A stretch of 64,000 nucleotides of DNA from Aurelia coerulea (lineage: Eukaryota > Cnidaria > Scyphozoa > Semaeostomeae > Ulmaridae), in assembly GCA_039566865.1 (NCBI GenBank), contig CM076958.1:5618501-5682500 (forward strand), given 5' to 3'. Shown one piece after another: positions 5,876 through 60,858 of the stretch; position 1 is the first letter of the stretch, and every line of letters starts with the position of its first letter. The notes under the pieces were generated by a model. It worked only from the letters and a program-made list of their open reading frames with translations, made no database searches and had not been told where the DNA came from. A program made the position numbers and the translations under genes.

Positions 5876-6436
5876 CCGGGTGCACCAAAATAAACTATAC
5901 ATGTTTGGCAGGCCACAATAAATCGTAAACTGGACTGATTTTAAGGATTTATGACCTAATCGTTAGCAGAAATCCTGAATTAGATACTGGGATTTTTTTA
6001 TTTCTTTTTCATTTTCAGTTTTTTGAGCTAGAAGTGAGTTTCCTAAAATTTAATTTCTAAAGAATCGACATGAATGGACAAAGAGAGAACTTGTTCGTGG
6101 TGATTTGCGATTTAGAAATCGACCATTTGTAATCTACTATACGAGAGGTCGCAATAAACCCCCAAATCCCCCTGAAAACTTTTTCTCTTTGTTCATTCAT
6201 GCTTAATCTTTTGAAATTTGATCGACGTTTTTTGATCGTTTTCAATGTTTTCGAAATTGAACATTTTAAGGAACTCGCTTGTAGCTCTAAAAAATGAAAA
6301 CGGAAAAATTTGCAAAAAGTCCTGGAATCTAATTCAGGCTTTCTGCTAAAGATTAAGTCATAAATCTTCAAAATCGGTCTAGTGTACGATTTATTGTGGC
6401 ATGCCAAACGTGCATAGTTTATTTTGGCGCATCCGG
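5876..6436. mobile_element. Foldback (hairpin) element, family A, copy 1
   Basis: Flanked by TA (5874-5875 and 6437-6438). Ends CCGGGTGCACCAAAATAAAC and GTTTATTTTGGCGCATCCGG are inverted. The inverted similarity runs about 200 bp inward on both sides: GCAGAAAxxCTGAATTAGAT on the left against its complement on the right, and TAGAAGTGAGTTTCCTAAAAT against its complement. No transposase; mobilisation in trans by a mariner/Tc1-like enzyme is an inference from the TA and the end motif. Related copies: 60254-60858 and the half at 46258. Confidence 0.88.
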
Positions 6437-6438
6437 TA

Positions 6439-8372
6439 GGAAATTTAGGTTTGATCCTTCAAAGCAGCTATACATTTTTCAAGTTTAAATCTCTTTTTTA
6501 TAAATTCAATGTAAAATTTTGCAATAGCGAACTACTTAAGATACTACGAACGAGCAAACTTTACCAATAATGGGAGGAAAAGATCATGACTACCCCCTGG
6601 TTTTAACATGAAGACGAAGAACATATTGAAATACATCTAAATGTACAATTTGAATATGCTACATATAAACGATTTTTACAGATAAAAATTTGAGACGGTT
6701 TCACATTGAGTGATAGGCTGACATAGGCGATAATGATGAACAATCGGACCGCGTCCGAGAGAGCAACTACAACAACGACCGTCCCCGTCACTGCTCCCCA
6801 CCCTGGCATCCATCGCTCAAACACCGCTAACGGCTCAGGGATTTTTTTACGCTATTATCTTCTTGTCTTATTTCTAAGTTTAAATCTATAATTATCAAGA
6901 ACTGCAAGAAGATTCTTTGAAATATCAAATTTGAAGTTTGAATTTTTAATAATTTGGAGAAAAAAATTGAAAAATTCGAAGTTTCTTTGAATTTTGAAAA
7001 ATATAACTTTGTCAAGAGCACATATAAGTTCATTTCTTCAAACTTAGGAGAGAACTGAAACGAAATTCAGATAAAACACTTTTTTATTCTTTACAAACAG
7101 ATTGTCATATTCAGTTGCAATACGGCAAAATTCAACATTAAGATTTGACTTTGGAAGTCAGTTGATCCAAAGTCTGTTGCTATCAAATAAAAGACTACTT
7201 TTGAAATTCTTGCTCTGTTATTCTCTGTGAAGTGATGCTTTTTGGCACGCCTCTTTCTCAGTAATTAGCAGCTTGTTTTGATTTTTTAACTCTCCAGCAC
7301 TGTTGCTCTCAGTTAATACCAAAATAGATCATGATGACTGTCGAGAAATTATGCATAGAGCTTCAGCAATTCTCCACATAATGTGTTACCTCGCGATAGG
7401 CGAGTGAGTTGGTCATATTGCGTGGAAAAATCATATGAACAATCCAGTGTCTAGATTTATCAATTGTTATCTAGTAGCCTCATCAATAGCTTGTTTCTAT
7501 CTCATATAGGCATATAGGCCGAATGCTGTGCTGATAAAAGGTTCAAGGAACCTTGATCAATCTTGCGTTTATGAGTGAGTGTAATAGATTCTCAAAAGAG
7601 GAAACGATTGTTTCGTCCTTTGATATCAGATAATATGATAGCGGGAATATAAAAACTATTTACTCAAATTTGGTTATAACTCAAATTTGTTTAAATGAAG
7701 ACAATATTTTCTGCTATAAAATGACACATTTAAGTGCATTTTCAGAATATACAGGGTGTCGCTATTTTGGTAAACTCATTAAAGAATATATGTTAGAAAT
7801 ATACATTCCTTTAAATGGTTCGGCGTTAGTATCACCAGTAATTGTTGTCAAATCAAATGGAGCATGCATATAAACCAAAATTACATACGTATAAGATATG
7901 ATTTTTTATGAACTAATTTCAGTGACTTAGAACCACGTTACGCAGCTCTATGCCATAAGAATCCACTCTGTAGTGTTGTACGATAAACAACTGCTTTATA
8001 CATGACGAAACTGGAGACTCCTACCATGTGCCATATTACGAACGAGAAAAGCTCCCCTAAACCAAGCTTGCTGGAAACTAGCTTGCAGGAAACTGGACCC
8101 TTATCAATTCATATCAGCCTCTTTTGCTCTAATGAAATTAAAAAATGTTGCACTGTTATATACTGGTGACATTATCTTTCGCATTCGTTTTTCTATCCTT
8201 TCACTACGTATGAAACTTAAAAAAACCTTCCAAAAGATTTTCAGCCCTCGAAATTTGTGTTTAGAAATGATCAATAAGCCCAGTAAGGCCAATCTATGAA
8301 GGTTTGAATATACCTGGAAAGTATAAGAGAAATTCACGGCAAAAGAAAATATCTGGTAGAGTCCACTATTAG
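6439..8372. other. Gene-free stretch with a GC-rich patch
   Basis: About 1.9 kb without a supported gene. Around 6745-6840 there is an unusually GC-rich patch in an AT-rich setting; it gave no recognisable protein or RNA. At 7750 TA is followed by CAGGGTGTCGC, which looks like one end of a mariner-type element, but no inverted partner was found to the right. Confidence 0.35.
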
Positions 8373-8374
8373 TA

Positions 8375-9302
8375 CCGGGTGAACCAAAAAAATACTCCCG
8401 TTTGAAAAATCATCAAAATCACGGCCGATTTTCAATTTTCTTTTTTTGTTAAAGGGCATATATCCCGATAGCAGTTGGCTGATGCAACAAAGAAGTTTGC
8501 AATGGAATTTGTTTCGTGACTTTTTATTTCTGCTTCATGAATTTTTCCAGCCGTAAAAATGCAGCCTCGGTTCCGTGCCTTGTGCTAAACAAAAGAGAGA
8601 GAATACATGCCCTTTATTACATTAGCCAATTAGCAAATTTAGGGCTGTCACGATACATGACCCCTTTCAAAGTAGATCAAGGATATTTTCAGAATTAGAG
8701 TGATTTTCTTCTTTTCAAGAATTTAAGAAAAATTTTCAAAAAAACTTGAAGCCATCGTAATTTCTAAACTGTTTGACGCAACATGAAATAATTTCGAAGA
8801 AAACCATAGTTTATGAATGCCTACAATATTGCATCAAGCAAAAGTCTGTTACTCATCTGGTTTATGATTTAGAAATTTGATGACGTCACATCCTCAAATG
8901 AGTTGAAATGTAAGATACGCTGTAATTTCGAGTGGTTTTGAATCATGCGACGAGAAAGCACTGATGATCACCAGATCAATTTCTTTGTGCATGTAAAACT
9001 TCTAGTTTGTTCATAAATGACAAAAAGAAATGCGCATTATCATTGGAGACTTCAATGATGATAAGAAATCGGAAAATTTTAGCTCTTAGGCAAGATTGAG
9101 GATTTTGCTCAGAAACTATAGCTCAAGATAAGGTTTTTAAGAGCGTAATGTTTCTACCTTGTTGTATCAAAAGCAAACATTTGATCATCTATGAATATTT
9201 TGGGTCTTTGACAAAACGACTCAAAAAGAAAATTTTATCAAAGGTTTGATAAACAATTTTTGATAATTTTTTCAACAGGGGGACTTTTTTTGGGACACCC
9301 GG
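8375..9302. mobile_element. TA-flanked MITE, family B, copy 1
   Basis: Flanked by TA at 8373-8374 and 9303-9304. Ends CCGGGTGAACCAAAAAAATA and its inverted partner in GGGACTTTTTTTGGGACACC; the inverted match, including GTTTGAAAAATCATCAAAA, covers about 48 bp. The interior is 830 bp of AT-rich DNA without coding capacity, and differs from family B copy 2 except near the ends. Confidence 0.8.
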
Positions 9303-9345: not shown

Positions 9346-10844
9346 AGACAAAATCGGTCGTTTGAGGTAAATTTTCTTGTACCCTCACTAAAACTGAAAT
9401 GGATGCTAAAATACTTCAGTTATTTGCAATTTTTTTTAATAAATCAGTTGTGGGGATGACCGTCCAGAGTTGTTTACATGTTTAGGCACACAGCTTGTTT
9501 GGGGCCGGAGCTGTGTTCATTTTCCGGTCGAAGAATATTTACCTTCGTTGAAATATCTATAGAAATCGCGACAAATGAGATATACAGATAAGAATTTCAG
9601 TGATTATGCATACTGACCTGAGCAATAACCCAAACTCCTTCACTGCTATCATATCTCAAAATTGGAGGCAATTTCTAATGATTTCTGGCAGAGATATCAT
9701 TTGGGCCTAAGCTTGTCCTCGCTTAAAACCCATTCCATTGCACTTAAAAAGTTATGGGAAAATTCTAGAGCTGAATAATGCACTTACCCATGACTCAGGC
9801 ACCAGTTTGACTTCGTTTGCCTTTTTTACATTCGCAAATTTTTTATAAGAAACGACCAGTTGTGGGCGAATTGCAAAAACTTTCCTCGGTCCATATTTTT
9901 CTCTGCACAGTCTATCCGCTTCAAACAACAAACAGTGAACTTTGTATCATAAAAGTCTTGCATCACAAAACATTCCTATAGAACGATTCCATGCGCCTTA
10001 GCGAGGCACTCGTGAATTGTTTTCACGCATTTGGTTCACTCAGTCAATGCAAACAAACAAAAGAGCAAAACCGAATATCTTTTTTAGCGAACCCAAACAA
10101 TGTTTTGTTCTTTTTATGTTTTGCATTGATTGAAATAAGAACGAAAAGAACGAAATGCGTGAATACAATTCACGAGTGCCTCGCTAAAGCGCGTGGAATC
10201 GTTCAAAAGGAATGTACTGTGATCCAAGAGTTTTATGATACAATGTCAAAGTTCACTGTTTGTTGTTTGAAGCGGAGAGACTGTGTAAAGAAAAATATGG
10301 ACCAAGGAAAATTTTTGCAATTCACCCACAACTGGTTGTTTCTTATAAAAAATTTGCCAAAGTAAACAATGCAAACGAAGTCAAACTTGAGCCTGAGTCA
10401 TGGGTAAGTGCATTATTCAGCTCTAGAATTTTACCATAACTTTTTAGGTGCAATGGAATGAGTTTTAAGCGAGAAAAAGCTTAGGCCCAAATGATGTCTC
10501 TACCAGAAATCATTAGAAATTGCCTCCAATTTTGAGATATGATAGCAGTGAAGGAGTTTGGGTTATTGCTCAGGTCAGTATGCATAATCGCTGAAATTCT
10601 TATCTGTATATCTCATTTGTAGCGATTTCTATAGATATTTCAACGAAGGTAAATATTCTTCGACCGGAAAATGAACACAGCTCCGGCCCCAAACAAGCTG
10701 TGTGCCTAAACATGTAAACAACTCTGGACGGACATCCCCACAACTGATTTATTAAAAAAATTGCAAATAACTGAAGTATTTTAGCATCCATTTCAGTTTT
10801 AGTGAGGGTACTAGAAAATTTACCTCAAACGACCGATTTTGTCT
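9346..10844. repeat. Giant near-perfect palindrome (two ~730-bp inverted arms)
   Basis: The left arm starts AGACAAAATCGGTCGTTTGA and the right arm ends with its complement. Reading the two arms against each other over several hundred bases shows only scattered substitutions (I estimate about 95-97% identity), for example the stretch with CACACAGCTTGTTTGGGGCC occurs in full in both arms. The centre is near 10095 with a poorly paired loop of roughly 60 bp. No spacer gene, no transposase, no obvious target duplication. The frame of 124 codons across the centre is a by-product of the symmetry. It could be a large foldback transposon or a local inverted duplication; transcribed, it would give a hairpin of about 700 bp. 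Confidence 0.95.
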
Positions 10845-11645: not shown

Positions 11646-12169
11646 GAAATTCTCAAGCAAAGAATTATCGAGGAAATATACAAATGTAAGGAGCTCATGT
11701 AGCGCGACTACCACTGTCTGTTTCGTATCACCTAAACTGAAAAGTATTTATACTATTATTTTGAGCTTCTTTCACAATGATCTCGCTGTTACTATGTCGG
11801 CTATATGGCGTAGACGATCAAAAAGGCATTTATTTATGTTTTTTTTTCTCATGTGGTCCAGCCATTTGATGTAATCTCACAGTTAGAAACTACAATTAAC
11901 AAGAAGTTAATTGGTTTGCTCGGTTCGGGCAACAATGTTTTGAATCTCTTTTTACTGGCACCTAAATCATGGTTTGGAATGGAACATGAAATTCTTCTTT
12001 CCGTGCAACTCCTTACCTGCATTTTCCTTATTTTCTGGGTCTAAAATGATGAGTCATTTCACCAAAGGAAAGATGTTCCAACTAAGTTAGCCTTTGAATG
12101 ATATTTGAATATCGCCAGCATACTTTTATTACACAGCCCGCCAAATGTACTACAGTTTTGCTCACACGG
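11646..12169 (+). mobile_element. Old copy of dispersed repeat N
   Basis: Aligns, with many changes, to 29038-29538: AAAGAATTAT near the left end, AACAAGAAG/TAAGAAG, AAATCATGG...AATTCTT, then TAAGTTAGCCTTTGAATGAT against TAAGTTGGCCTTTGTATGAT, and ACACAGCCCGCCAAA against CCACAGCCCGACAAA. Its right end CTCACACGG|TA resembles a decayed CTCACCCGG|TA end. Confidence 0.55.
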
Positions 12170-13678: not shown

Positions 13679-14292
13679 CCGGATGAGTAAAAAAAAGTCC
13701 GGCGTTTAATAGGCTACTGCTCCCTGAATATATAAGCAATGATATTTTGCAATATCTAGTTGAATAGCTAACATGTTTCATAACTTTTGAAAGTTTTCCT
13801 GGTGAAATCAGTCGCTCCGTTTAGATTTTGCAAGGGAGAAAAATGTCCTTTCGAGAAACCTTGAAAAACGTGCTAAAATCATGAGCAAGCTTCCCTCATT
13901 TGTTTACTTTACAGCAATGACTTGAGAACGCTTTAGCACGTGCTATCCTCTTTGGGGAATGAAAAAGTCACCCCCTAGTATGAATAACTTATTCAGGGGG
14001 ATTCCATTCTCCCAAGAGGACAAAATGCATGAATGCATGTGAGTGTCATTATTACTAGGAAGGAAAACAATTTTTTGTCTGTTTTCCTTCGTTTTTGCAG
14101 GTTTTCGAAAGGGGCTTTCTGTAGAAAACTCTCATATCAACGGGAAGGAATGGCCAATTAAAGCCGGGTAAATTTCTGAACCTAATTTGACATATTGGGA
14201 ATAAAACAAGACAGTTTTCAATATCATTGCTTTGATATTCCGGGAGCAGCATCCTTTTCAAACTTGTTGGGCCTTTTTATTGACTCACCCGG
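13679..14292. mobile_element. TA-flanked MITE, family C
   Basis: TA at 13677-13678 and 14293-14294. Left end CCGGATGAGTAAAAAAAAGT, right end TTTTTATTGACTCACCCGG, inverted to each other; further inside, GATATTTTGCAATATC on the left and ATATCATTGCTTTGATATT on the right also pair loosely. No coding capacity. The end motif ties it to families A, B, D, G and H. Confidence 0.8.
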
Positions 14293-20879: not shown

Positions 20880-22071
20880 AATACCTGGTCAAGTACCCCC
20901 CCCCCCCCCGGGCAATGTGGAACTTAAACTTCCGTACCGACAGAGAACAACAAAGATACGCTAACAGGAGTTGAAAATTATTAATTTCTGTTAATTTGAT
21001 ATTCAAACACAAACAAAATTCAGACGTTTTCAGCGTGCGTATATAGTTCCCTTATTTTCACGTTAGGAGCTTCAAATTTCTCAATAGCGTTGGTATGCTG
21101 GGAAAAAAAGTAAAATCTTTCAAAAAACTACAAAAACTTGTATTTGTCATTGGTATCTAAAATATTTCTTTTGTGCATTTTGTCAAAGACCAGATCAATG
21201 TATACTAATTTGGGTTTGTGGAAATCGTTGCTTTTAATTACTAACTGGCTTTTGAAACATACTTGTACACTCATTTTTCATTCTTCAAAAGTTAAGAAAA
21301 CAGCCCTACCTGGATTTTAAAAGCTAAGAAACTTTTGTACTTTACAGTTTTAACTTTCCAATCACAAACAGAAATGTTTTGACAATGTACAGCTATAGCA
21401 TCTGTTTGGACATTATTTTGAGTGCGAATTATGTTATTGACTTGTTTTGAGATCTTACTAAGTAATTTAGGAGCCCTTTAGACAAAACAAGATTAACTTT
21501 ACCCTTTTGGCATTAAAAATATAAGAAACACGTAAGAAACTTTTGTTAGCAAAATGGCCCAAAAACATAAGAAACTGCCTAACAGCCCCGGACCTTAGTT
21601 TCTTATAAAAAAATGAGTGTAATTGGCTACAAAATTTATCTAAACCTTAGTTTTACGCGCCAATAGATCTACTGCCTATATATCTACGGCCTTTATACTT
21701 TGTAAACCTTGTACGACTCATAGGACATGAACCTTCATATGGAGCCGTAAGATATAGTTTCTGGCAAAAATAAAATGCCATTGCTCAAAATGTAATTTTT
21801 AAACTATGATTTCATCATCTTCCTTTTGAAGGAATGATATGATATTGATATCTGAAATCGACTCTTTCCTCAAGGACCAATGCACAAGCACAAAATTTCA
21901 TGATCAGTAACAAATTCAACTTCCTTAATTTTGGAAAAGTTTGCTATTTGGTAGGTCAACCAGTGCTGAATGAAATAAAAAATGAGCGCCTATTGCAGGC
22001 TAAGAACTATTCAAACGTGCTAGTATTAATGTTTGCCCTTCGGCTGAAATGGGATGTCTTTGTATTTTCAG
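20880..22071. other. Gene-free stretch upstream of the channel exon
   Basis: AT-rich; a C-run at about 20898 followed by GGGC is the only odd spot. Probably intron of the potassium channel gene. I looked for the preceding PAS exon (SDGF...TG and CKFL-type motifs) and did not find it. Confidence 0.4.
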
Positions 22072-22209
22072 GAGCTCCTTTCTGGTGTTTACTTGATCTT
22101 ATGCCAATCAAGAATGAAAATTCAGAAGTCGTTTTATTTCTGGTTTCACATAAAGACATCACAAAATCAAAGCTTTCTTCGTCAGAAAATGACATTGATT
22201 GTCCTAAAG
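22072..22209 (+). CDS. KCNH: ELK-type (KCNH) potassium channel, exon for the end of the PAS domain
   Basis: A 138-bp internal exon. The acceptor is TTTGTATTTTCAG| and the donor AAAG|GTATGT. Translation reads GAPFWCLLDLMPIKNENSEV, then VLFLVSHKDITKSKL and a polar tail. This is the last strand-strand hairpin of the N-terminal PAS (eag) domain; the wording PFWCLLD-xx-PIKNE...VSHKDIT is that of the ELK subfamily (KCNH3/4/8; Drosophila Elk), clearly closer than EAG or ERG as I know them. The PAS domain sits in the cytoplasm and tunes channel gating. The exon is in phase 1 at both ends: the first Gly takes its first base from the exon before, and the last G waits for the next exon. That next exon, 31792-31943, fits this phase. 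Seen: splice sites and sequence; inferred: subfamily. Confidence 0.85.
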
Positions 22210-23261
22210 GTATGTATACTTCTAATGGAAGCTATATCTTTTGCCTGATTAGCCAAATATGCCTTATAAGGTGCCAATCATTTAGGCTTTTCCCATAAGG
22301 CATTGTTCAGTTTTTAACTGATTTTGACGCGCAAGTAGCTTCATTATCAAGTATGTATCAATGTATCAATGTATCGGAAATCTAAATTATATTTCAAGGG
22401 TCCGTATTTCGTGTTAACTGCCAAAAAAAGTTCAGGCCTTTAAAAATCGTGGTACAAAAAAGCAGTGGATGGATTGGGATGAATCGAAATCTCTTGATAG
22501 CACATAGACGGAGGTATTTTTGTAGTTTTCTTTGCACTTTTGTGAGCGGGGAAAACTTGCATAAATTCAACTTTACGAAAATTCGTTTGTTGCAAAATGG
22601 TTGAAAATGGGCCTAAAACACTTCCCCACAATACACTCAAGAGAATGAATGGAAATGATTTTTAATAAACACGAAAGTTTCTCGATCACATGGCAATGAA
22701 TGTGCAGCTGATGAAGAGTTGCTTTGAATTAGAAATTTATTTATGATTTGATAGAGCGCTTCATAACGCTTTCCATACATTTCGTAAACAAGGAATTTTT
22801 GTAAGGTTAGATTTACCTATATTTTCCGTCCTTTTGAAAATACAAAAAGAGTCGCGAAAACCAAATTTTTAATGAATTTTTTAATTTTTGATCTTTTAAC
22901 CAAATTTGGCTATCAGACCAAATTTGTTCCATTCCAATCCATCCAGTATTCTAGGTGCTATGAATTTTCAAATGTAAAAACTTTTTTGGCGCACATGGTA
23001 CGATTTCCATTTGAAAAATCAAAAATGAGATGAAGCACATCGGATTGGTGTGATCTTGTGCAAACAGAGGGCCAATGCGATATGAAACAGATCCGATGTG
23101 AAATTAAATGGTATTATGTAAGGGGGCTTAGACATGGAGAAATGAATTTGAATCGAATCACTTAGGTGTACTTTCCAGGTACGGTTCGCTTTCTCGAAAG
23201 TTTAAGGTCTCTGCCAAACAAAAGAATACAGATGATTCAGCATAATAAATCCACTCTTTAA

Positions 23262-24472
23262 CCCTATTTTAATAGGGGGTGGGGTTTTTCGCCCTTCTAC
23301 CGGATTTTTTTAAATAGCTTCCAAACGATGCTAGCTAAAAAGTTGAAAATCCTTAACTTTTACCAAAATTTAATTGGCAATCAGAAAATAAAAATTTCAA
23401 TACCTATTGTTTGACCACGTGACCACCACATGCCCACATTTGGAGAGTGGTCACAACGAAATTCTTTAAAATGGCTCTAATTTCTTTCTTTGTTAGGGGT
23501 CAGTCATATATCGATTTCGTCCCCGCTTAGCGTTATTTCGACGTTATTTCAGACCCCCCACCCCCCCACCCTTAGCATCGATCGATAAAAACTGAAAATC
23601 GGCCTACCAGCACATGCTAGGCAGGCCTGGCAACTAGGCTATCTGACTCATTCTCGAACCTTGCAAATTGCTAGAAATGTGTTCAGGGCCATTCGTAAAA
23701 CTAAAGCTGGCGCTGGCGCTGCAAAAGGCTCTCCGGTAAGGTATTTTCTTCTCAAGACATTACCCTCACTTTGCAATCTGTGATATGAAAATCGATGTAA
23801 AAATTTTTTTTCTAGCGTCATGGCTGTTTACCCCCCCCCCCCCCCCCCCTCCCACCCATTAACGTTGAAATGACGCTAAGCGAGGACAAAATCGGTATAT
23901 GACTGACCCCTTAGTAAATCTCAACAATATGCATACCATTCGGTTCGTCTCGATGAGTACATTCATTTGATATATAATTTATTGATATTTGCTGACATCA
24001 GCACTTTATCATATATATGACTTCATCAACCTTTATGACATCATATTCCTATTAATTAGTAATTTCTGCATGCAAAACTCATGGAATGACTTCAAATATC
24101 GATGAAGGTACATGATTTCACCAATAATATGCGATATTTAATGGGTTTTAATCATAATTATTGAGCAAACAATTTTGCATTGAATCAAATTTTTATTATT
24201 TAATTAGTTATTTAATTAGAAACCAAAACTATACGTATGAAACCACATGAAACTACAAATTAATGGTATCAAGCAAGCATTCGGATGGTTTTTGCCATTT
24301 TATCCAGCTATTTGCTAAAAATGGGCCCTTTTTTGCAAATAGCTTTTTTGATTGATGCTATTTTTACATTCTCCATTGTGCAATTATGACACAGTGCAAG
24401 TTTCATTGCGATAGCTGTTGTACTTGCGGAGAAAACGGTAGAAAATCACTTTTTTACCCTGTTAGAATAGGG
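23262..24472. mobile_element. Element J, piggyBac-like, TTAA-flanked
   Basis: TTAA at 23258-23261 and 24473-24476. Inverted ends CCCTATTTTAATAGGG and CCCTGTTAGAATAGGG; each end is itself a small palindrome. TTAA followed by CCCTA is the canonical piggyBac end. No transposase frame in the 1.2 kb. The interior carries GACATCA/TGATGTC-type motifs shared with the repeats at 34.96-35.72 kb and 49.36-49.83 kb. Element K is inserted in it. Confidence 0.8.
23496..23910. mobile_element. Element K, Harbinger-like MITE nested in J
   Basis: Flanked by TTA (23493-23495 and 23911-23913). Inverted ends GGGGTCAGTCATATATCGAT and its near-complement, pairing over about 50 bp through CGCTTAGCGT. C-runs lie inside both arms. 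A 3-bp TTA duplication with GGGG ends fits PIF/Harbinger. It cuts element J, so it is the younger of the two. Confidence 0.85.
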
Positions 24473-25180
24473 TTAAAAAACGGTATAACAAACGAAATGG
24501 ACTGGGAGAACTACAACTCCGTTGCCTGAATGATGATTTAATCAAATTTTGAGAATTCATTTACAAACCATAATGCAGTATTTTCCTCTTGAATGAAGAT
24601 TTATCGAGAACTATCTTCCGTGGGTCATTCCTGACACTTAAAGTGATTGGCTGAGTCGGCTCTATTCTCAACGAATGAAATTGCAAAATAGTGCTTTTCT
24701 TAGCACAGGCATTGCTCTCTAATGACACAAAAACTGTTGAATATAATTTTGCAAATATGATATAAATGAATATAACTATGCAATAAGAATATAATGTTGC
24801 AAATAGAATATAAATATGAATGTAGTTATGCAATATGAGTATAACTATGCAAATATGATATAAATATGAATGTAGTTATGCAATATGAATATAACTGTGC
24901 AAAGATGATATAAATATGAATGTAATGATGCAATATGAATATAATTATGAAAATATGATATAGAAATATGAATGTAGTTATGCAATATGAATATAACTAT
25001 GCAATAAGAATATAATGTTGCAAATATGATATAAAGATGAATGTAGTTATGCAATATGAATATAATTATGAAAATATGATATAGATATGAATGTAGCTAT
25101 GCAATAAGAATATAATGTTGCAAATATGATATAATATGAATGTAGTTATGCAATATGAATATAACAATGCAAATATGATA

Positions 25181-25645
25181 AACATAGGGCTCGAATCTTT
25201 AAAAAGGTCGGTGTAAAATTCTAGTTTCAAAATGGCGGCAATTATTAAATTTGAAGCTGTGACGTCATCAAATTTCGAAATCCGAAACCAGAAAAGCTAC
25301 AGATTTATGCTTGCCACCAGATTTTAGACCTTCATAAACTATGGTTATCTTGAAGGTTAAGTTATTTTTCCTCTATTGGTTTAGGATTTACGATGATTTA
25401 AATTTTTTCAAAATTTTCCATCAATTTTTTCAAAAATAATTAAATTGCCGCCATATTGAAAAAAAACAAGATATCAAAAAATGTCCACGGCAGATTTACA
25501 GCAAAGTACCGTAAGTCCCTTTCAAGCCATTTAATTCAAAGAAAAATGTAGTTATGCAATAAAACTATGCCATAGAATATAAATTACAGCCACAATATAA
25601 AGATGACACAAATCGGTGGTTGCAAAAAGATTTGAGCCCTATGCT
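25181..25645. mobile_element. hAT-like MITE inside the satellite
   Basis: Inverted ends CATAGGGCTCGAATCTTT and AAAAAGATTTGAGCCCTATG. The satellite phrase AATATGATA appears at both borders (25172-25180 and 25646-25654) although it should occur once in the uninterrupted unit, so it is a target duplication of 8-9 bp. The interior has TGACGTCATCAAATTTCG and no coding capacity. Confidence 0.85.
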
Positions 25646-26595
25646 AATATGATATAAATATGAATGTTGTGATGCAATATGAATATAATTATGAAAATAT
25701 GATATAAATATGAATGTAGTTATGCAATATGAATATAACTATGCAATCATGATATAGATATGAATGTATTTATGCAATAAGAATATAATGTTGCAAATAT
25801 GATATAATATGAATGTAGTTATGCAATATGAATATAACTATGCAAATATTATATAAATATGAATGTAGTGATGCAATATGAATATAATTATGAAAATATG
25901 ATATAAATATGAATGTAGTTATGCAATATGAATATAACTATGCAAATATGATATAAATATGAATGTAATGATGCAATATGAATATAATTATGCAAATATG
26001 ATATAAATATGAATGTAGTTATGCAATATGAATATAACTATGCAATCATGATATAGATTTGAATGTATTTATGCAATAAGAATATAATGTTGCAAATATG
26101 ATATAAATATGAATGTAGCTATGCAATAAGAATATAACTATGCAAATATGATATAAATATGAATGTAGCTATGCAATTAGAATATAATGTTGCAAATATG
26201 ATATAAATATGAATGTAGTTATGCAATATGAATATAACTATGCAAATATGATATAAATATGAATGTAGTTATGCAATATGAATATAACTATGCAAATATG
26301 ATATAAATATGAATGTAGTTATGCAATAAGAATATAATGTTGCAAATATGATATAATATGAATGTAGTTATGCAATATGAATATAACTATGCAAATATGA
26401 TATAAATATGAATGTAGTTATGCAATATGAATATAATTATGCAAATATGATATAAATATGAATGTAGTTATGCAATAAGAATATAACTATGCAAATATGA
26501 TATAAATATGAATGTAGTTATGCAATATGAATATAACTATGCAAATATGATATAAATATGAATGTAGTTATGCAATATGCAAATAGTGAACTATG

Positions 26596-26692
26596 AACCG
26601 ATTTTGATATGAGGTAAGATGAATTAGAACATAGGACCTGCAGATCTTAGAGCCAGAAGCGAGGTTCTTAAAAGGCTTTTTCGAAAACATAT
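26596..26692. mobile_element. Scrap of foldback family A inside the satellite
   Basis: AACCGATTTTGA, GAATTAGA, then AGAGCCAGAAGCGAGGTTCT and GTTTTCGAAAACA-like sequence follow the order seen in one arm of element A (60300-60440) with a deletion between. Flanked on both sides by satellite units. Confidence 0.65.
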
Positions 26693-28029: not shown

Positions 28030-28536
28030 CCAGGTGTACCAAAAATACTCCTGCTCAAAAAGTCACCAAAATTGGATCTTACATCGTAAAATGTTCTGTT
28101 TTGTCAATGATACGAATATATTCAAAGATAATAAGATAAACGGGTGGGCAATGACGGGTTGAAGTACCTAATTCTTAGCTATACTCTCCAAGCAACATGG
28201 TAAGTCTTGCCTATGAGTCATTATTTTGTGATTTTTCATTATTCTTCAAGTCTACATGATAGTTTGTGTGTCTTTGTAACATTATGACCAAACTAGAAGC
28301 TTATCATACAAACACAAATTAATGTGGCAACAATCAGTGCTTTTGCAGTATGCTTCAAAACCAGGCAGCCTGAAAAGAGCTAGGTCTGCTCATTTTGAAA
28401 CGAATCACAAGGTCGGCTTAACATGGAAAAATAATTCAGTTTTTGGTCTATTTGCTGAAAATAGAAATTTTAAGATCGGCCATGTAATCAAATGTTGGTG
28501 ATTTTTCAAACAGGAGTACTTTTTTGGGACACCCGG
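28030..28536. mobile_element. TA-flanked foldback, family B, copy 2
   Basis: TA at 28028-28029 and 28537-28538. Left CCAGGTGTACCAAAAATACT, right AGTACTTTTTTGGGACACCC plus GG, pairing over about 48 bp through CCACCAAAATT-type sequence. Right half matches the remnant at 5225-5410. It begins 32 bp after the satellite ends. Confidence 0.85.
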
Positions 28537-29037: not shown

Positions 29038-29538
29038 CCGGTTGAGTAAAGAATTATTCTATCTTTGAAGAAAGAATACTGTAAAATTCTTCTGAGCAAT
29101 TTGAAACAATTCAACGTCAGTAGCTGACTGATGCTCAATTCAACTTTAACAATTTTGTACAATTGATAATGCATTGTTTTGCTCTGAGAGGAAAAGTTTC
29201 AAAAAACCTATTTTCCATCAGCTATTGCCAAAAAATTTACATGAGTGGTTCAAATTTAATTCAATTTTCAACTTGTAGGATGCTAAGAAGAATTTTTCTG
29301 GCTCAGGCATTGTATAAAAGAGGAAATGTAAGACAGGTATATCATGGACCAGAATCAAACGTAGAATTGTTGTTCCCATACGAGCCTCTTGCCAGGAATT
29401 GTCTAATTTCTGGAACTAAAAAGATTTCATGTCTAAGTTGGCCTTTGTATGATTGATTAACATTTCAGTTTTGAATATCGGCTGCGTATTTTCTATTCCA
29501 CAGCCCGACAAACGTGTTAACTTTTTTGTCTGACCTGA
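29038..29538 (+). mobile_element. Dispersed repeat N, copy 2
   Basis: Left end TA|CCGGTTGAGTAAAG and right end GTCTGACCTGA|TA look like weathered versions of the TA-CCGGGTGAGT ends. The body aligns with 11646-12169 throughout, at roughly 60-65% by eye. An open frame at 29163-29456 is not conserved in the other copy. Confidence 0.55.
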
Positions 29539-44774: not shown

Positions 44775-45665
44775 CCGGGTGTCCCAAAAAAATGTATACA
44801 GATTAGATTGACTGCAGCGAAGTGAATCTAGCTTTAATCAATGACTAATCACTCTCAAAATGTTCCTCGATAGTTAACTTGAACTTAGATACCTCGTTTG
44901 TTGGTATTGGTGCTTTGAGAGCAGAAATATCTATCTTAAAAGCTCAAATTTGGATCCACTTGCAAACCAGAGCTTTGGCCTTTTGGACTAAGCAATTTCC
45001 TGAAGCACATCGAAATTTAGAACTGAAATTATTGAAAAATTAAGAAGCTTCCCCATGGGTGACTGGGGGTGACTCCCGGGGGTCTACTCAATACATTGAA
45101 CACCCGGGATGTGCCTGCCAATAGGACAGGGTTATACCTTTTGTGTTTTTATTCCGGCACAGGTATGTTCATTAAAGATTTTTTCCCAGAACAGGTCAGA
45201 TTTGACATACAAAATTAAGGTAACTCACAAAAGACACTTATATTATCCAGGACAGGTACTATGTTTTCAAACATTTATTCCAGGACAGGGTCATAACATT
45301 TTCTTTTGGCAGACAAATCCCCGTTGTTTTTCTCCAAGGTAGACCCCCGGGGGGTGACTTCTGGAAAACAGAATTACACAAGATCTAATATTGTTCAAAT
45401 ATTATCAAGGTTATCTTTGATTTATACGCTGTGCGTTAAAAAATTGCTTAGGCCAAAAAGCTAATGCTCTGGTTTGCAAGAAGAGGCAAATTTGAGCTTT
45501 CAAGATTGATATTTCTGCTCTCAAAGGACCGATACCAACAAACAAGGTATCTATGTTCAAGTTAACTATCGAGGAGCATTTTGAGAGTGATTAACCATTG
45601 ATTTAAGCTAAATTCACAGCACAAGAGTCAACCAAATCCGTATGCATTTTTTTTGGGACACCCGG
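44775..45665. mobile_element. TA-flanked foldback, family D, copy 1
   Basis: TA at 44773-44774 and 45666-45667. Ends CCGGGTGTCCCAAAAAAATG and its complement. Arms pair over about 270 bp, for example GATAGTTAACTTGAAC and CAAATTTGG/GCAAACCAGAGC occur in both. A G/C-tipped MITE is inserted in its centre. Copy 2 is at 51308-51923. Confidence 0.92.
45075..45351. mobile_element. G/C-tipped MITE nested in D, 8-bp target duplication
   Basis: Ends CCCGGGGGTCTAC and GTAGACCCCCGGG are perfect complements. GGGTGACT is duplicated at 45067-45074 and 45352-45359. Inside, the phrase GGACAGGT/GAACAGGT recurs four to five times. hAT-like by target length. Confidence 0.88.
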
Positions 45666-46257
45666 TAGATTATTGATGTAAACAAGGAAGAGAAAGGGAC
45701 CAAGGTAAGAACCGTGCGGTACACCAACATTGATATGGTCAATTTCTGAGTCAATTCCACCAACCCTTGTAGTGTTTCATAGAATAATTAAAAGATAGCA
45801 TGATAAGTAATTTGTCTCGTAAAAGTGTTAATGTAATATAAAATTTGAAAGATATTGAAGGTTTGAAAGACTTACCGTAACATAAAAAAGAAAATTCTAA
45901 CGAATCGGCAATTGGTCTTGTACACGACATGAGCTAATCGGAAATGCAGTTTCGTTCCTGAAACGCTAAGCTTATTATCGAAGCAGGTCGTAGTACTTCC
46001 TCTCGATGTCAGAGCACCTCGTGACTTTAGCATGGTATTAAAGAGACTTGATGATTCCTGTGTTTCTTGGTAGCAGATTTGCCAGGGCAGGGACTCTAAG
46101 TAGCCTTCAGTTGATCATGGTCTGGTCATTTTTATTTCATTTTTTGGCTTATTTTTTCGCTGCAGTTATTCAGTTTCTAATTGAGATAACTCCCTAAGTG
46201 GTTAACGTTATACAACCCGAATTGCTGTGTTTTGCTAGATGAGATCTTCCCAGCATA

Positions 46258-46575
46258 CCGGCTGCGCCAAAAGAAAAAAACTACCCACTTTTGACATGCC
46301 GCGATAACGATAAACAGTACACTGGACTGACTTTGAACATTTGTGACTTAATCTTTAGCTAAAGTCCAGAATAAAATTCTAGGATTCCTTATGCATTTAT
46401 TTTCCTTCCTTCTCTTAGCTATTAGCGACATCCTTAAAATGTTTGGCTTCGAAAACACTAAAAACGGTAAAATATCGTCGATCAAATTTTCTAAAGACTT
46501 GACATCATGAACAAAGGGAACAGTTCTTTGTGGTGATTTGGGGATGTGAAGTCAATTCGCTATGATCCGCCGTAC
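46258..46575. mobile_element. Half of a foldback A element
   Basis: TA-CCGGCTGCGCCAAAAG at the left, then the A arm in order: CACTGGACTGACTTTGAACA, GACTTAATCTTTAGC, GCTTCGAAAACACT, GAACAAAGGGAACAG and GTGGTGATTTGGGGA. The second arm and right end are missing; the sequence changes after the loop. Confidence 0.8.
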
Positions 46576-46589
46576 AAGCATTGTGCTAT

Positions 46590-48007
46590 GCTGGGAGAAA
46601 TGTGACATTGCCGTCATTAATAGAAAGAAATGCCCTTCCTCTTACAACTGAATTGGATTGATACTTGGTATTATGCTGTTGTTAAAGTTCAGAGGATCCT
46701 CTAGATTTGGCACAATATGATGCCAAACTAAATGCTTTCTGTTCATTAGAAAGGTTTAAGAAATTCAATTGAAAAATGTTAATTCAAAACTTTCTCATTC
46801 CTCCAAGTCTTAGGATAATCCTTAACCCCCTTGATCAAATCTATCCAAGCATTAGAAGCAAGTCTGAAAATTCCTTATATACATCCATTCCGTGCATTTG
46901 TATCTTGATAAGAGTTGGTAAAATCGTCCAAAAAGTACAGAAAATCTGGCTCCCCTATCGCTACTTTTGTTTCGTCCTGTTGTTTTATGAGCCAGTAAGG
47001 ATTTAGTGCCTATCTTAGACCACTCATTGTGATTTTAAGCCGTTGAAACGTTCTTTAGTTTGCCTGAGTACCTCTTCTTATGGGTGAAAAATTTCTTTTG
47101 ATTCGAAGAAAGCTAACCAAACTATAGAATGGCATAACAGGATCTAGGATCAATATAGGTGCTGCAGGTTGTGAAAAACCTTAATTCATTGATTGATTGG
47201 ATAGAAGTCCTATTTCTCAGTTTGACAAATACAGCCAAAATATGGGCTGTTCAGTATCATGTAGATGTTAACTTTTTGATGATCAGTATAATTGAAAGAC
47301 AGTAATAGATCTAAACAGTTTCCGTATCATTAGAAGGAAATTACTAAACAAAAACATAATTTTTTCCATTTTTATGGTTGAAAAGATCGATTAAATTGAG
47401 CCTCTCACTTATGGCTTTAGCCAAAGTCCATGGCACCGAGTTTTCAGGAGTTTTTCATTTAACACAAAAAGTTGTGCAATTATATATCATGAAAACACTT
47501 TCAAAATTAAGTGAAAACTTTCTGCAAGACCAGGGAGTTGCAAGTTTCAAATCGGTAAATAATTTTGTAGCATAATGTTTCAAATGGTGGATATACTTTT
47601 ACGACTTACTTGTTAGGTATGTAATCTTTAAAAAGTAGTGTAAATTGTCATTAAATGATTTTTTGGATTGAATCCCTTCAAGTGAATTTAGATATTTGTC
47701 TGCCATTCTACCGTTCTATATTTGAGATCTTCATTCTTTCAAAAATTACAGCATTTTTCTTTTTGTCAAAAGAATTTATGCATGGTTTTGAAAGCATTCC
47801 GAAGAACATTGCAATTGATTCAAAACTGACCAATTTTCAAGAAAGTTATAGTTCATAAATTCTGTGATAAAGAGACAAAGCAAAACTCTGTCGCATTTTT
47901 GGACTACCATTTTCCCATTAGATAAGATGTCATATCTTCAGAAACGATGGAATAAAAAACAGCTGTATTTTAGAAAAGAATACGTATGGTATAAAAAATC
48001 CATGATA
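46590..48007. other. Gene-free stretch
   Basis: About 1.4 kb of AT-rich DNA. No supported gene, RNA or repeat border. Confidence 0.4.
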
Positions 48008-48009: not shown

Positions 48010-48765
48010 CCGGGTGTCTCAGAACAAAGTACCCCCTTTTGACTGGAAATATGAACCAAGCATTAAGATATCATTGCTCCCCGACTTCACAGCTAAATTT
48101 ATCATTGTTTAAATTAGATGCACGTACCTTGCATTTAGAAATCGTCCATCAAACACCGGAGATACAGGTTCGCAAAGTCAAAATTTACAGTGCACCCAAA
48201 ACCAGAGGTTTTGAAAAAGGGCCTAGTCATGATTTGTATCGTGGACATTTTCCAAAGTACCTGTAGACTTTAAGTTTCCGTGTTTGGCTTTTGAAAAGAA
48301 GAAAGGATGCATGGACATGGCGCTGATTAAACAAATACAATAAAAATGTGGTAAGAGTGATGTGCTCCTTTTCATCTTCTTTAATACAAAACACTTGGGA
48401 TCAAATGCAATGCAAGGACCGTTTCCTTAAAAGAAAAGTGACTTCAAGAACAATTGAAGTAATTCAAGGTATAAATCTTTTCAAAAATAGAAAGCAAAGG
48501 TCAAAGTCGAAAATTCGTTTGCAAGATGCCTGTTTGTTGTCGAAGTATGGCTAGGCCATTTCTCAAAACTTCTGGTTTCAGGTGCACTCTAAATTTTGAC
48601 CTTGTGAACTCATATCTCTGGTGTTTGGTGGTCGCTTTCGAAATGCAAGGTATGTGTATTTAAGTTGAAGACAAACAAATGTAGCCATGAATTCAAAAAG
48701 TCCCGAAATATTATCGTTTTGTTGCCTTGTTGAGTCAAAAAGGGGTACTTTTTTGAGACACCCGG
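48010..48765. mobile_element. TA-flanked foldback, family H
   Basis: TA at 48008-48009 and 48766-48767. Ends CCGGGTGTCTCAGAACAAAG and CTTTTTTGAGACACCCGG pair. Arms pair over about 230 bp: TTGCATTTAGAAATCG, CAAACACCGGAGAT and GTGCACCCAAAACCAGA on the left have complements on the right (GTTTCAGGTGCACTCTAAAT, TCTCTGGTGTTTGGTGG). No coding capacity. Confidence 0.9.
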
Positions 48766-51307: not shown

Positions 51308-51923
51308 CCGGGTGTCCCAATATCTCATATCTCGATATCGGTTGATCCAGGGTAGAGAATTTAGCTTTTACTAATGGCTAATCCCTTTCAAAATGTTACT
51401 TGATAATTAACTTGAACACAAATACCTCGTTTGTTGGCATTGGTGCTTCGAGAGCAAAGATATTAACTTTGACAGGTCAAATGTGCTACTACCTCTAAAC
51501 CAGACCTTTGGAGATTTGTCCTGAAGAAATACTTGAAGCACAGCGAGTAAATCAATGATAGCCTTAATAACTTTGAGCAATATTGTATTATATCATATTA
51601 TATTCTGTTTGCTAGAAGCATAGTTAACTAATGCTAAAAGTCACCCCACTTAGCAGTTTTTTAATCTTTCTTAAATTTCATTTTTTAATTTTAATGTGCC
51701 TCAAGAATTTGCGAATGAGAATGAGGCCAAAAGGCCAAAGCTCTTGTTTGGAGTTGGACACACATTTTAATATTTTTACTCTCAAATCACCTATATCAAC
51801 AAGCAAGGTACATCTGTTCAAGTTAACTATCGAGGGACATTTGAGAGTGATCAGCAATTGATTAAAGCTAAATTAACAACACTAGACCCAACAACATATT
51901 TACTTTATTTTCTGGGATACCAG
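51308..51923. mobile_element. Foldback family D, copy 2 (weathered)
   Basis: CCGGGTGTCCCAATATC at the left and CTGGGATACCAG at the right. Arms match copy 1: CTTTCAAAATGTTACTTGAT, ACCTCGTTTGTTGGCAT, and on the other side AACAAGCAAGGTACAT and GTTCAAGTTAACTATCGAGG. The TA flanks are no longer clear on the left. Confidence 0.85.
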
Positions 51924-56455: not shown

Positions 56456-56462
56456 TCTTCTA

Positions 56463-58290
56463 AAGGAATGTCCCAAAGTTTTTGCCTCGTTTGTGTGGCT
56501 GCTGTGGAGGAGCTGTTGATGTAAGTGCCTCGGTTTTTACACAGTTGCATAGGTCTGGCTTAAACTTAGAGTTTGAGACAATGTTTGAGTCAATCTGACA
56601 AGTGGTTAATTGTTGCTTATTCATGGCAGAGGAAGTCAAAATAAGTGGTTGCTTCAAAAACAGCACTGCTATTGTTCTCCAGCAATCTCAAAATCAAGTA
56701 AATTTTCAAAGAAAGGGTTCTAGCGTTGTATTTAAATTCTTCTGCATTTTTTAAAAGGTTTAATAGTGTTATTTATCTATAAGACAATGCTGTCTTCCTT
56801 TTTAAGATCGTAGAGAGCATTCGAATGTGACTCTAGAATACTTTCTGTCATACACTACAGGGTTTCCCAGAAACATTGTTCGGTGTTTGATTAAATATTG
56901 AAAAGTAACGGTAAAATGTACAGGCTCCTGGTTTGATATCCCTGTTTCCAAGATTTTAAATTAATTGTTGACACCAGAATCTTGTGAATCTGCTAAGAAT
57001 TCACGGAGTTACAAGCTTTTGAAGTTCAAGTTTGTGCGAAAGCTGAAACTAGATGCCCCCAACTGACTTGTTTTTCAAGAAGACGTCCCAACATAAGGGT
57101 AAAAGAAGACTGTCCAATGTTTTACGCCTCGTATAGATATCAGAGTAATTTACTTTTGCAACCGTTGCCAAAATTTACTTAAGAATGCAAGTATTCAAAC
57201 ATGGAATGAAAACTTAATCAACGAGAGACGGGGCCATTCCAAATTGTTCTCAACAGGATTCCTCCAAGCATCCAGAACCTTTATTCAATGTTAGAGAAAG
57301 CTAGTTTATCGAAAGGGTTTTTTAAATTCCATTTTATTTGCTTTGAATAAACGAGATTCTACTTTCAGAAAATATGCAATTTAGGGGCGTCTTGTTTCAG
57401 CTTTCGCCCAAACTTGAACTTCAAAGAGTCGTAACACCGTGAATATTTAGCCAATTTGTTAGCTAGCTTCTGGAGCCTAAAATTTGTTTAAAAGCTCAGC
57501 AATATGGTTATCTTACCATGGAGCCCGTTCGTTATTTCGTTATTTTAAATATTGACTCAAACATCGAAAAATTTTCTTGGGACACCCTGTACTTGATTTT
57601 GACACCACAAATCGCAACCAGCAATCGATATCTCAAACGTTGTATTTTGAACGTAAGAAATATGTTGTCAGAGGTTATGAGGAAACCTTCACGTATTCCC
57701 TCTTCACTGAAAGTTCATGTTTCAATATTTAAGAATAAACACAAGATATCACATTTCAGTTCACAACCCAAAAATAAATGAAGTGGCAAGATACTGATCA
57801 ACCCTTTCCTTTTAGGGGAGTGAAGTGTGTCTAACTTCGAGAGTAAAACCATTCAACGGATCCATGGGGTGTAATGGAGCCAAAGAAACGCAGCTATTCC
57901 CCGTTGTAGACTGTAGCTTTTTGCTATTTTTGTGCCTAAAAATGTTGTCTTCTGTTGATTCAAAGTGTCTCCAATTTCTGAATTCCACCTCCTGCGATAT
58001 TTTATACTCTAAACTCATCGTTTTTCAAGGGAACCGCTCGTAAGAAACGTATCCCTTGTAAGAAATTCTCTTGCACACAACAAAAGTGCTGTTTTTGCAG
58101 CAACCACTTATTTAGCATTTCCTCTGCCCATAGTTAATATGTTCTGCCATAAATCAGCAACCACTTCGCAGATTGATCCATGCAAAGTCTCAAACTCTAA
58201 GTTGAATCCTGACCAATGCAGCTGTGTAAAACTGAGACCATTGATGCTACGGCAGCCACGCAAACAGGGCACACCCTTTTTGTGACACCC
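56463..58290. mobile_element. Weathered foldback I carrying foldback G inside
   Basis: Inner arms pair: GTGTGGCTGCTGTGG, TTTTTACACAGTTGCATAGG and AACTTAGAGTTTGAGACAAT on the left (56490-56590) against their complements on the right (58170-58260). Outer ends AAGGAATGTCCCAAAG and TTTTTGTGACACCC are a faded version of the GGGTGTCCCAAA end, with TA next to both. Without G it would be about 1.1 kb. Confidence 0.7.
56868..57589. mobile_element. TA-flanked foldback, family G, nested in I
   Basis: TA at 56866-56867 and 57590-57591. Ends CAGGGTTTCCCAGAAACATT and TTTTCTTGGGACACCCTG. Arms pair over about 200 bp: TTCACGGAGTTACAAGC, TGAAGTTCAAGTTTG and GCGAAAGCTGAAAC against their complements near 57395-57470. 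Confidence 0.9.
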
Positions 58291-58365
58291 TATATAACGG
58301 TACAATGTTGGATCCGTAACAAAGTGTAACGGATCTCCTTCCCATTTACACCGTTTCTGCTTATC

Positions 58366-59937
58366 CGTAACATTTGTTATTTTCTTTCCATGCATATATC
58401 ATCATGTTATTCTTGAACAGTGTAAACGCTTTTTGAGCTTAAAGACTTTGTAGCAGATCAAAATAATACCGGTACAGCTTGAATGTTTTCTAGTACTTCT
58501 TAGAAGACTATCGGGTAGACAACTGCACGTGTGGAGCATGTGTTTCCACAGTAAGCTTTTGTTACTAAGGTGTTACTTATTAAAGATATGGACCAGAGGA
58601 CATCAGGGTTATGCAATAAAGGCATTTGAATTTAAACAATGTCATACAACAAATATGGCAAAATGAATTACGCATTTCAAAAACAGGGGACATTATTGTG
58701 GCATGGAGCCCCTGTGAGGGAGTTATTACTTATGAATTTTATTCAAGACAATTCCTGTCGTTGGTTTATGTAATGTATTTCACGGTGTTTTCGCTAAAAA
58801 TGTTTAAATACCAACTACAACGATAACATCAGTCATTCACTCTGTGTAACAGAATGGATATAAAAGTTTTACATGTCTCAAAGTGTTCATAAGACCATTT
58901 AATTTCAAAAGAGGACAACTTTTGGCATTGTAACTGCTTTCTTCTTACTGCCTTGAAATTATTGCCATAAGTTCTTTGCACTTCAGATAACTTGTAACTA
59001 ATTATTTTTGGTGAGCATAGGTGAGCATGCCAAAAATACTATAGAAAATGGAAGATATGTTCTTTTGTCAAATTTATCATAAATCGAGAATATCGCTACA
59101 ACGATCAGCCTCATTCGCCTGCCAAATTCCCATGTTTTCAGAATTTCTAGCTATCATTGGCATCAGCCTTGTTTTCAACTAAAACAAAAATTATAATTAG
59201 AACTACAAACTACAATTACATTACACTGTGACGTTCGTGGTGAGGTTCTCGATGCCACTGAGCCCTCACCATGAATGCCACTCACATTATAACTAAGCCT
59301 TACATCATAAAAAAATTATTGATTCAAAGAAATAAGGAGAGTGTGCTGCTGTTTATATTTCAATATAAATTGAACCTTGCTGAGGGTCTAATGAAAGAAA
59401 TTTTCGCTTCTAATATTATTCTGTTTGCAACTGTACCCAAATTTTGATCATAAAACAAAAAGTTTTTTAGACATAGTTTTTTCTAATCAATATTAGCAAA
59501 ATTGTTTCCCATTGGCCTTGCCTGTCATGAGCATTAGCTTTGAAGGTGCTGTGGTAAAGTTGAGCAATCCTCTAACCTTGTAGCCAGAATAGTTCAGATG
59601 GGCAGAGTTTGAGCCCAGCCCATGCCACACGGGCGCCATGACAAGGGATTCAATTGGCAGTCAGCTACTACTATAATCCATTGGTCTCAGATCTTGGCGT
59701 TGAATCATTCATCTTATCTTGCACCTTCACCAGCCTCATTATGAAGTAAAGCGTTTTCGGGTATTAATGAATACGAACTCAATCTGAATGATCTAATCTG
59801 ATATCTAAAACTGATTGCAGAATACTTTTTCTTTATCTTTGATAAGAAATTTTCATGATGATTTTATCATTGTTTTCACGTTGAATACTGTGCAATGAAA
59901 TTTCTTTGTTTGAATTTCTTTGCTCAAGGATCTTTAT
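58366..59937. other. Gene-free stretch
   Basis: About 1.6 kb without supported genes. GGCAGAGTTTGAGCCC near 59602 is a poor B-box-like sequence, not enough for a SINE call. Confidence 0.35.
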
Positions 59938-60253
59938 GAGGGGTACTTCGGGGGGGTCCCAATACCGCAATACCGCACGAAAAAGACACAAAATACCGCA
60001 ATACCGCACCAAAAGATAGCAAAATACCGCAAACGCTAGAAACTAAAAACAATGCTGTTAATACAGTATACCAGTCTGTAACAGTTTGATTCCGACCTAA
60101 ATCCACCTTCCTTCATCAAAATTTGTAGTTTGGTCTATTAGATCGTAGCTAGATGTTTTGCAGACAAAAGTGTGACTTGAGAACGACGGGAAAAGATTCA
60201 TTGATGTGCTGTCAGTAAAATTGCATTGACGGCAGAAATTATGAATATATATA

Positions 60254-60858
60254 CTGGATGCGCCAAAATAAACTATGCTCGTTTGGCAGGCCACAATAAA
60301 TCGTACACTAGACCGATTTTGAAAATTTATGACTTAATCTTTAGCAGAAAGCCTGAATTAGATTCTAGGACTTTTTGCAAATTTTTCCGTTCTCAGTTTT
60401 CAGAGCTAGAAGCGTGTTTCTTAAAATGTTCGTTTTCGAAAACACTGAGAACGATAAAAAAACGTCGATCAAATCTTAAAAGACTCAACGCGAATGAACA
60501 AAGAGAAAAGTTTTTCAGGGTGATTTGAAGATTTAGTACGAACTCTCGTACAGCAGATTACAACAGATCGATTTCTAAATCCCAAATCACCACGAACAAG
60601 TTCTCTTTGTCCATTTATGTCGATTCTTTAGAAAACGTGATAGATATTTTTTGATCGTTTTCAGTGTTTTCGAAAGCTGATATTTTAAGAAACTCGCTTC
60701 TAGTTCTAAAAGCTGAAAATGAAAAAAATTTGCAAAAAATCCCAGTATCTAATTCAGGCTTTTTGCTAAAGATTAAGTCACAAATCTTCAAAATCGGTCC
60801 AGTGTACGATTTCTCGTGGCCTGCCAAAAAAGTGCATAGTTTATTTGGGCGCACCCGG
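60254..60858. mobile_element. TA-flanked foldback, family A, copy 2, nested in E1
   Basis: TA at 60252-60253 and 60859-60860. Ends CTGGATGCGCCAAAATAAAC and TTATTTGGGCGCACCCGG. Arms of about 230 bp pair (AATTTATGACTTAATCTTTAGC against its complement at 60765-60790). E2 lacks it at the matching place. Confidence 0.92.

Follow-up and report, generated by a model that had tools for sequence, protein, structure and literature searches.

Our analysis of a 64,000-nucleotide stretch of the Aurelia coerulea genome (contig CM076958.1, positions 5,618,501 to 5,682,500; the whole stretch is called the window below and is numbered from its first letter) revealed eleven two-ended elements that carry a common end motif, are nearly always bounded by TA and mostly form hairpins. 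They are part of a large, real group of non-autonomous elements, of a kind already known. The reading that we favor, and hold to be distinctly probable, is that these are non-autonomous, TA-inserting miniature inverted-repeat transposable elements (MITEs) of the Tc1/mariner type, mostly hairpins, with a transposase supplied in trans; we infer in addition that most of the families descend from one long-armed ancestor and that hairpins have been renewed. In this model, the transposase would recognize a two-block end of about 32 nucleotides, so that the end would stay alike in every family, and the arms behind it would drift until ordinary comparison misses their kinship. Families would arise by bursts from single copies, and in at least family D the hairpin would have been renewed after the split of its sister groups, either by copying of one arm over the other or by replacement of one end with the other.

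The end motif is shared by the nine elements for which it had originally been predicted. With at most one mismatch, TACMGGGTGYMC occurs at 15 sites in the window against 0.34 expected, a count reached by no shuffle, and TACMGGGTGYMCCAAAA, with at most two mismatches, at 16 sites against a mean of 0.2 in ten Markov simulations. Across the genome (574 Mb in 294 contigs), the commonest form of the end, with TCC at nucleotides 8-10, lies at 27,788 places with at most one mismatch, against 1 place for the reversed control. An origin in chance or composition, from AT-rich DNA with a handful of GGGTG words, could draw on the AAAA run of the motif and on nothing else; the window and genome counts refute it, and we give it practically no weight. 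The left end is recognizable in all nine predicted elements, that at 13679 with 5 mismatches to the 17-nucleotide pattern. The elements and partial copies are listed here with strand where assigned, the triplet at nucleotides 8-10 as subtype, and arm scores against the shuffle maximum.

5876..6436, E1: family A hairpin, subtype CGC; TA on both sides; arms 84% alike past nucleotide 32; score 161 against 40.5
8375..9302, E2: family B, no hairpin beyond the ends; TA on both sides; score 24 against 34
13679..14292, E3: family C hairpin, subtype AGT; TA on both sides; score 48.5 against 29.5
28030..28536, E4: family B, arms marginally alike; TA on both sides; score 30 against 27
29038..29538, E12: family K, decayed ends (end scores 18.0 and 20.8, expected 0.33 and 0.0); TA on both sides; arms beyond nucleotide 32 not mirrored, score 21 against 33
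44775..45665, E5: family D hairpin, subtype TCC; TA on both sides; score 263.5 against 34
46258..46588, plus strand, E6: half of a family A element, with left end, arm and loop; homology ends near the expected start of the second arm
48010..48765, E7: family G hairpin, subtype TCT; TA on both sides; score 145.5 against 30.5
51308..51923, E8: decayed family D hairpin; AA on the left flank, right end CTGGTATCCCA followed by TA; score 100 against 28
56463..58292, E10: family I hairpin, left end decayed, with E9 nested inside; arms 56535-56675 and 58077-58231; score 125 against 30
56858..57589, E9: family H hairpin inside E10; TA on both sides; score 126 against 28.5
60254..60858, E11: family A hairpin; TA on both sides; score 276 against 31
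5224..5408, plus strand: family B fragment without the outer end, matching the interior of 28030-28536
22954..22998, minus strand: single end J, subtype CGC, with its end at 22998, found by motif scan and weight matrix
12069..12169, minus strand: family K half with its end at 12169; about 100 nucleotides in common with E12; score 55 against 35.5

The original prediction had thus listed nine of the eleven two-ended elements and missed 29038-29538, together with the single end at 22998 and the related half at 12169. The eleventh, 56463-58292, had been taken for a half; its supposed lone end is the decayed left end of an element running to 58292, and the element nested inside it starts at 56858 rather than 56868. 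A second supposed half, at 5225, lacks the outer block altogether. The eleven elements and the half element at 46258 make up about 12.7% of the window. TA stands directly outside both ends in ten of the eleven, as predicted for all; the exception is E8, preceded by AA. Likewise, most but not all elements are hairpins: the arms past nucleotide 32 score clearly above all shuffles in 8 of the 11, E4 is marginal, and E2 and E12 fall below.

Two observations concern the target sites. In 9 of the 11 two-ended elements, the TA target has a G after it or a C before it (background 0.311, p 0.0008, post hoc). The flanks of E6 (46228-46610) form an 18-bp perfect palindrome centered on TA (TCCCAGCA/TA/TGCTGGGA); such pairing at 8 of 8 positions is found at none of the window's roughly 4,790 TA sites, and ten other elements tested pair at 1-3.

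The end itself is bipartite and spans about 32 nucleotides, with an outer block, CCGGGTGTCCCAAAAAA, and an inner TTTG(A/G) at about nucleotides 27-39. An alignment of 22 ends from eight families, each family weighted equally, shows conservation in columns 1-18, then a spacer that varies in length, then the TTTG block, past which information drops. Without gaps, TTTG falls at nucleotides 27-39 in 16 of the 22 ends, with all eight families represented; other 13-nucleotide bins have it in 0-9 of the 22. A short end as sole requirement, as first proposed, is therefore too simple. A weight matrix of the two blocks ranked its 20 training ends top, followed by 29538, 12169, 18432 and 29038 (0 to 0.33 expected); 29038 and 29538 form an end pair, and neither E10's left end nor the right end of E8 was among the 45 best. 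The likeness of the ends persists in family consensus sequences, the first 11 nucleotides being identical across the five sampled groups D600, D970, N1, N2 and B, whose left ends had been picked by the end motif itself. An exact search for the 17-mer in viral contigs returned a single match, by chance, in a phage coding gene, and a literature search by the letters of the terminal inverted repeat (TIR) gave no paper on transposons, by title, among those listed.

How representative is the window? We sampled 40 left ends from the places listed on contig C1, in stretches of 3 kb (shorter for four), and found a right end within the stretch for 35. Twenty of these 35 right ends are identical to the 17-mer, or 16 of 31 when L047, L049, L051 and L052, with right ends known beforehand, are left out. 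Twenty-seven of the 35 two-ended elements are hairpins. Grouped by interior, they form four clusters: D-type with 18 members, B-type with 8, N1 with 7 and N2 with 2; none of the eight B-type elements is a hairpin, and N1 and N2 are absent from the window elements. Lengths cluster mostly near 550, 600 and 970 nucleotides, with four below 320, and 34 of the 35 are shorter than 1 kb; the remaining element, of 1.9 kb, holds a 254-residue frame that by eye resembles part of a long interspersed nuclear element (LINE) reverse transcriptase. In their TIRs shared between copies, the TA target duplication at both ends (10 of 11 in the window), short length, lack of a transposase and high copy number, these elements look like Tc1/mariner-type MITEs, and the prediction of a mariner/Tc1-like, TA-inserting, non-autonomous type is supported. 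Their long inverted arms, clear in 8 of the 11 elements of the window and found in 27 of the 35 from contig C1, are a feature of Foldback-type elements.

Are the arms of different families related? Pairwise they look unrelated: the single blastn match between families at an expectation value (E) of at most 1e-4 is a 34-bp end. Profiles built from the arms beyond nucleotide 40 with their genome copies give another result. With D600-D970 matches excluded, 21 of 30 ordered profile pairs at E<=1 are in register, that is, at the same distance from the end within 8 nucleotides; the corresponding controls give 0 of 1 for reversed targets, 1 of 6, 0 of 4 and 2 of 9 for three shuffles, and 2 of 4 for the opposite strand. 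At E<=0.01, 12 of 14 pairs are in register, against 0 of 0 for the reversed targets and for each of the three shuffles and 0 of 1 for the opposite strand. In-register E values reach 1e-7 for N2-D, 4e-5 for G-D, 0.001 for N1-A, 0.003 for C-A and 0.005 for the left and right arms of B, and several matches span 60-120 nucleotides rather than short blocks. This similarity in register suggests that most families share a long-armed ancestor, from which the arms of different families probably diverged; we read family B as a decayed hairpin within that descent. The claim of at least six unrelated families accordingly fails under profile comparison for most of them, and that of interiors replaced repeatedly is unsupported for most families.

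Several points weigh against so broad a descent. Cross-family arm tests exceeded all 60 shuffles in only 13 of 410 cases against 6.7 expected, and the 30 profile pairs are non-independent, both directions being counted, D600 and D970 entering separately and the arms of B making two entries. Two matches are out of register, B left-C by 11 nucleotides and G-I by 12. Links outside D, N2 and G have E values from 0.001 to 1; H, I and K show weak profile links or none to other families; and the groups D-N2-G and A-N1-C-B lack a strong bridge. Global-alignment distances between distant families lie at the level of shuffled sequences and hence give no measure of divergence. Finally, the similarity in register could stem from selection on the arms.

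If a single transposase needed the short end only, interiors could have been swapped repeatedly for unrelated DNA. The pairwise dissimilarity of the arms would fit such a history, and D600 and D970, which share arms and differ in length, show that central parts can change; the profile similarity in register and the second conserved block at nucleotides 27-39 nevertheless make this improbable as a general account. For H, I and K, none of them strongly linked, interior replacement may still apply. It is also conceivable that the likeness reflects functional sites at fixed distances from the end rather than descent, as the matching distances would suggest. Second copies of the end motif are hardly found within the arms, however (one of 18 tests at p 0.005, in family B, the others at 0.07 or above), and matches of 60-120 nucleotides are long for such sites; we regard this explanation as more improbable still. 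Usual practice tells MITE families apart by their interiors and links them by their ends. Where ends agree and interiors seem unrelated, capture or swapping suggests itself; in these elements such a pattern appears, for most families, to be deep divergence that emerges once copies are pooled.

The history of the hairpins can be read from their arms. In family A, all 16 informative sites group arms across copies (10 of 12 with other trimming), so the hairpin existed before the copies did and passed to them as a unit. The D600 copies mostly agree: 67 of 78 copy pairs show inheritance as a unit, taking the better of two orientations and scoring ties against, with divergences of 14.7% between arms and 11.6% between copies. 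Between groups the relation changes. D600 and D970 are 26.3% apart, whereas inside either group, with four copies compared, the left and right arms diverge by 13.4%. A single origin before the split predicts arms at least as different as the groups, and the family D hairpins were therefore, judging from these distances, probably renewed after the sister groups split. The arms of E5 and E8 also favor renewal (9 of 13 sites; 6 of 9 once the ends are removed; p 0.04), while their loops show the two elements to be copies lying in opposite orientation. Replacement of one end with the other is a route already on record, from mariner MITEs of Drosophila (PMC4161770). Renewal has to be weighed against the inheritance seen within D600 and against D970 and N1, where 4 of 6 copy pairs each speak weakly for it.

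Mean identity between the arms of an element is 74-87% in six of the eight groups measured. One may go further and suppose that the hairpin itself is what has been kept, in one non-coding lineage of at least seven families whose arms drifted beyond pairwise recognition between families while the two arms of an element were repeatedly re-copied onto each other, a self-renewing palindrome in need only of a foreign transposase. We hold this to be rather doubtful. If it were true, the re-copying could proceed by gene conversion in an extruded hairpin or by end replacement, and repeated renewal would make the thousands of copies a natural record, in an animal, of how arms are copied onto each other.

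Which transposase could have moved these elements? The triplet at nucleotides 8-10 mostly tracks the arm family, with TCC in B, D, H, N1 and N2, TCT in G, CGC in A and J, and AGT in C. With at most one mismatch, the CGC form lies at 8,747 genome places (3 for the reversed control) and the AGT form at 6,944 (6 reversed), counts that may overlap between TCC and CGC and between CGC and AGT. This leaves room for one loosely specific transposase as well as for several related ones. Several related autonomous transposons, one per subtype (TCC, CGC and AGT) and each moving its own derivatives, would be compatible with common descent. Such an arrangement would account for the subtypes mostly following the arm families and for family ends that differ at up to 8 of 17 outer positions; according to the accessible part of one report, transposase binding can be prevented when TIRs differ by 16% or more (PMC4161770). 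Among B, D, G and H, however, the ends disagree at only 0-3 of 17 positions, and the subtypes may grade into one another rather than form discrete classes. We treat this arrangement as a serious contender and lean slightly against it.

No transposase was seen in the window, as predicted, by a Pfam search of 41 of the 90 open frames of at least 80 residues; its matches were RVT_1, PAS_9 (a potassium-channel exon) and two weak ones, BPS (0.084) and NOT2_3_5_C (0.023). A tblastn comparison with pieces of bacterial IS630 and one motif, a weak test, gave a best E of 0.18, and Rfam at its gathering threshold and a tRNA scan gave no matches in the window.

In the genome, the search suggested with the prediction, for a transposase gene bounded by the motif, covered 46 loci, a good part of which duplicate one another, and revealed no autonomous partner with CCGGGTG-type ends among them, a point against the reading that we favor. 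The loci comprise 30 (L013-L042) and a further eight (L095-L102) with DDE_3, and eight (L083-L090) with DUF4817; 150 of 324 DDE_3 candidates were scored and DUF4817 had eight matches. The first 30 loci were tested against the TCC pattern only, with at most 4 mismatches, and some repeated units extend past the examined stretch. Transposase_1 (PF01359, mariner DD34D) had no genome match, and none in control genomes either.

Single ends lie at L019, L020 and L022, with no second end across the gene; that at L020 resembles family A by eye. L095, L096 and L097 carry TIR pairs of their own, which shows that the TIR finder works there; it found none in units of the L013 and L032 types, whose copy homology extends past the examined stretch. 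At each of L087, L089 and L090 there is an open transposase-like gene that encodes the motifs QQDGAPAHTS and WPPRSPDL and a DUF4817 helix-turn-helix; the frame at L088 stops early. The L087 gene has 36 residues between its second and third aspartates, where DD41D needs 41, and is not bounded by the ends described here. Genes of this type sit in a 4.5-kb unit common to L089 and L090, without recognizable TIRs, and are possibly domesticated or carried by another element. An AGT-type end beside one L087-type copy was considered as a partner end and rejected, as it lies outside the shared unit. DDE_3 transposase frames of about 300-400 residues occur in tandem arrays with a period of about 3.2-4.7 kb on contig C22 (2608795-2694095), and similarly on C4, C5, C9, C10 and C20.

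Tc7 of Caenorhabditis elegans is a non-autonomous hitch-hiker on Tc1 whose ends fit another element's transposase; unlike here, its partner is known. We compared the Aurelia ends with 58 published Tc1/mariner TIRs from two papers, a set from which many families are missing. Duplicates or near-duplicates were left out (for example Dnomar1.1, Mpmar1.1, Rpmar35, MITE_9, MITE1.1 sub1, MITE1.2, MITE2.1, MITE4.1 sub1, MITE5.1 and MITE5.2), and Rpmar17 was trimmed to its first 41 or so nucleotides. The best fit was the rosa (DD41D) pair Apismar4.1 and MITE4.2, with a mean score of 26.1 against 20.1 for the next, non-rosa TIR and at most 16.9 in 100 shuffles. Six further TIRs, five of them non-rosa, exceeded the shuffle maximum; Apismar4.2 and 4.3, also rosa, fell outside the top 14, so that one of three rosa lineages fits. 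A poor fit of the rosa TIR to family A (score 12) also speaks against the reading that we favor.

As far as the available part of its description goes, Apismar4.1 is an aphid element of the rosa group (DD41D, Crmar2-like) with the TIR AAGGGTGTCTCAAAAAGAACGCCGGATTTRAA, a TA target and MITEs (MITE4.1 and 4.2) of 349-578 bp (PMC5490172). It shares with the Aurelia elements the outer block, an inner TTTRAA at similar distance, the TA target and short MITEs; its first two bases are AA rather than CC (PMC5490172, same part), and no DD41D transposase with these ends was found here. Mariner MITEs of Drosophila, in the accessible portion of their report, acquired long inverted arms when one end was replaced by a copy of the other, and they retain homology to full-length mariner, for which no counterpart is known for the Aurelia elements (PMC4161770). 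The Stowaway-like DcSto elements of carrot, as presented in the part available, comprise nine families that likewise share a short conserved TIR and a TA target. Their conserved part is 6 bp, in contrast to two blocks over about 32 nucleotides and arms in register here (PMC3695323). Coral CMITEs are also a group of related animal MITE families; in the available excerpt, their interiors are more conserved than their TIRs and piggyBac is implicated, unlike the conserved ends seen here (PMC2872659).

Beyond these elements, the window contains a probable exon at 21849-22298, an open frame similar to an Eag-like potassium channel in the PDB sequences (E 8e-13), and a reverse transcriptase domain (RVT_1) at 40374-42956, whose frame has 5,804 protein matches at E<=1e-50. 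Another hairpin, at 23495-23911, has the ends GGGGTCAGTCATATA and TTA on both sides and presumably is a MITE of the PIF/Harbinger type. A TA-flanked element with different ends, CACCCCCGTCTAAGTGCC, lies at 62272-62590. Adjoining E2 is a 1.5-kb palindrome (9346-10844) without the end motif, whose arm pieces are 89-99% alike. An AT-rich tandem array (24738-27997, 24% GC) with units of 19, 50 and 100 bp stops beside E4 and contains segments similar to the interior of E2 (25249-25429) and to that of family A (26641-26743).

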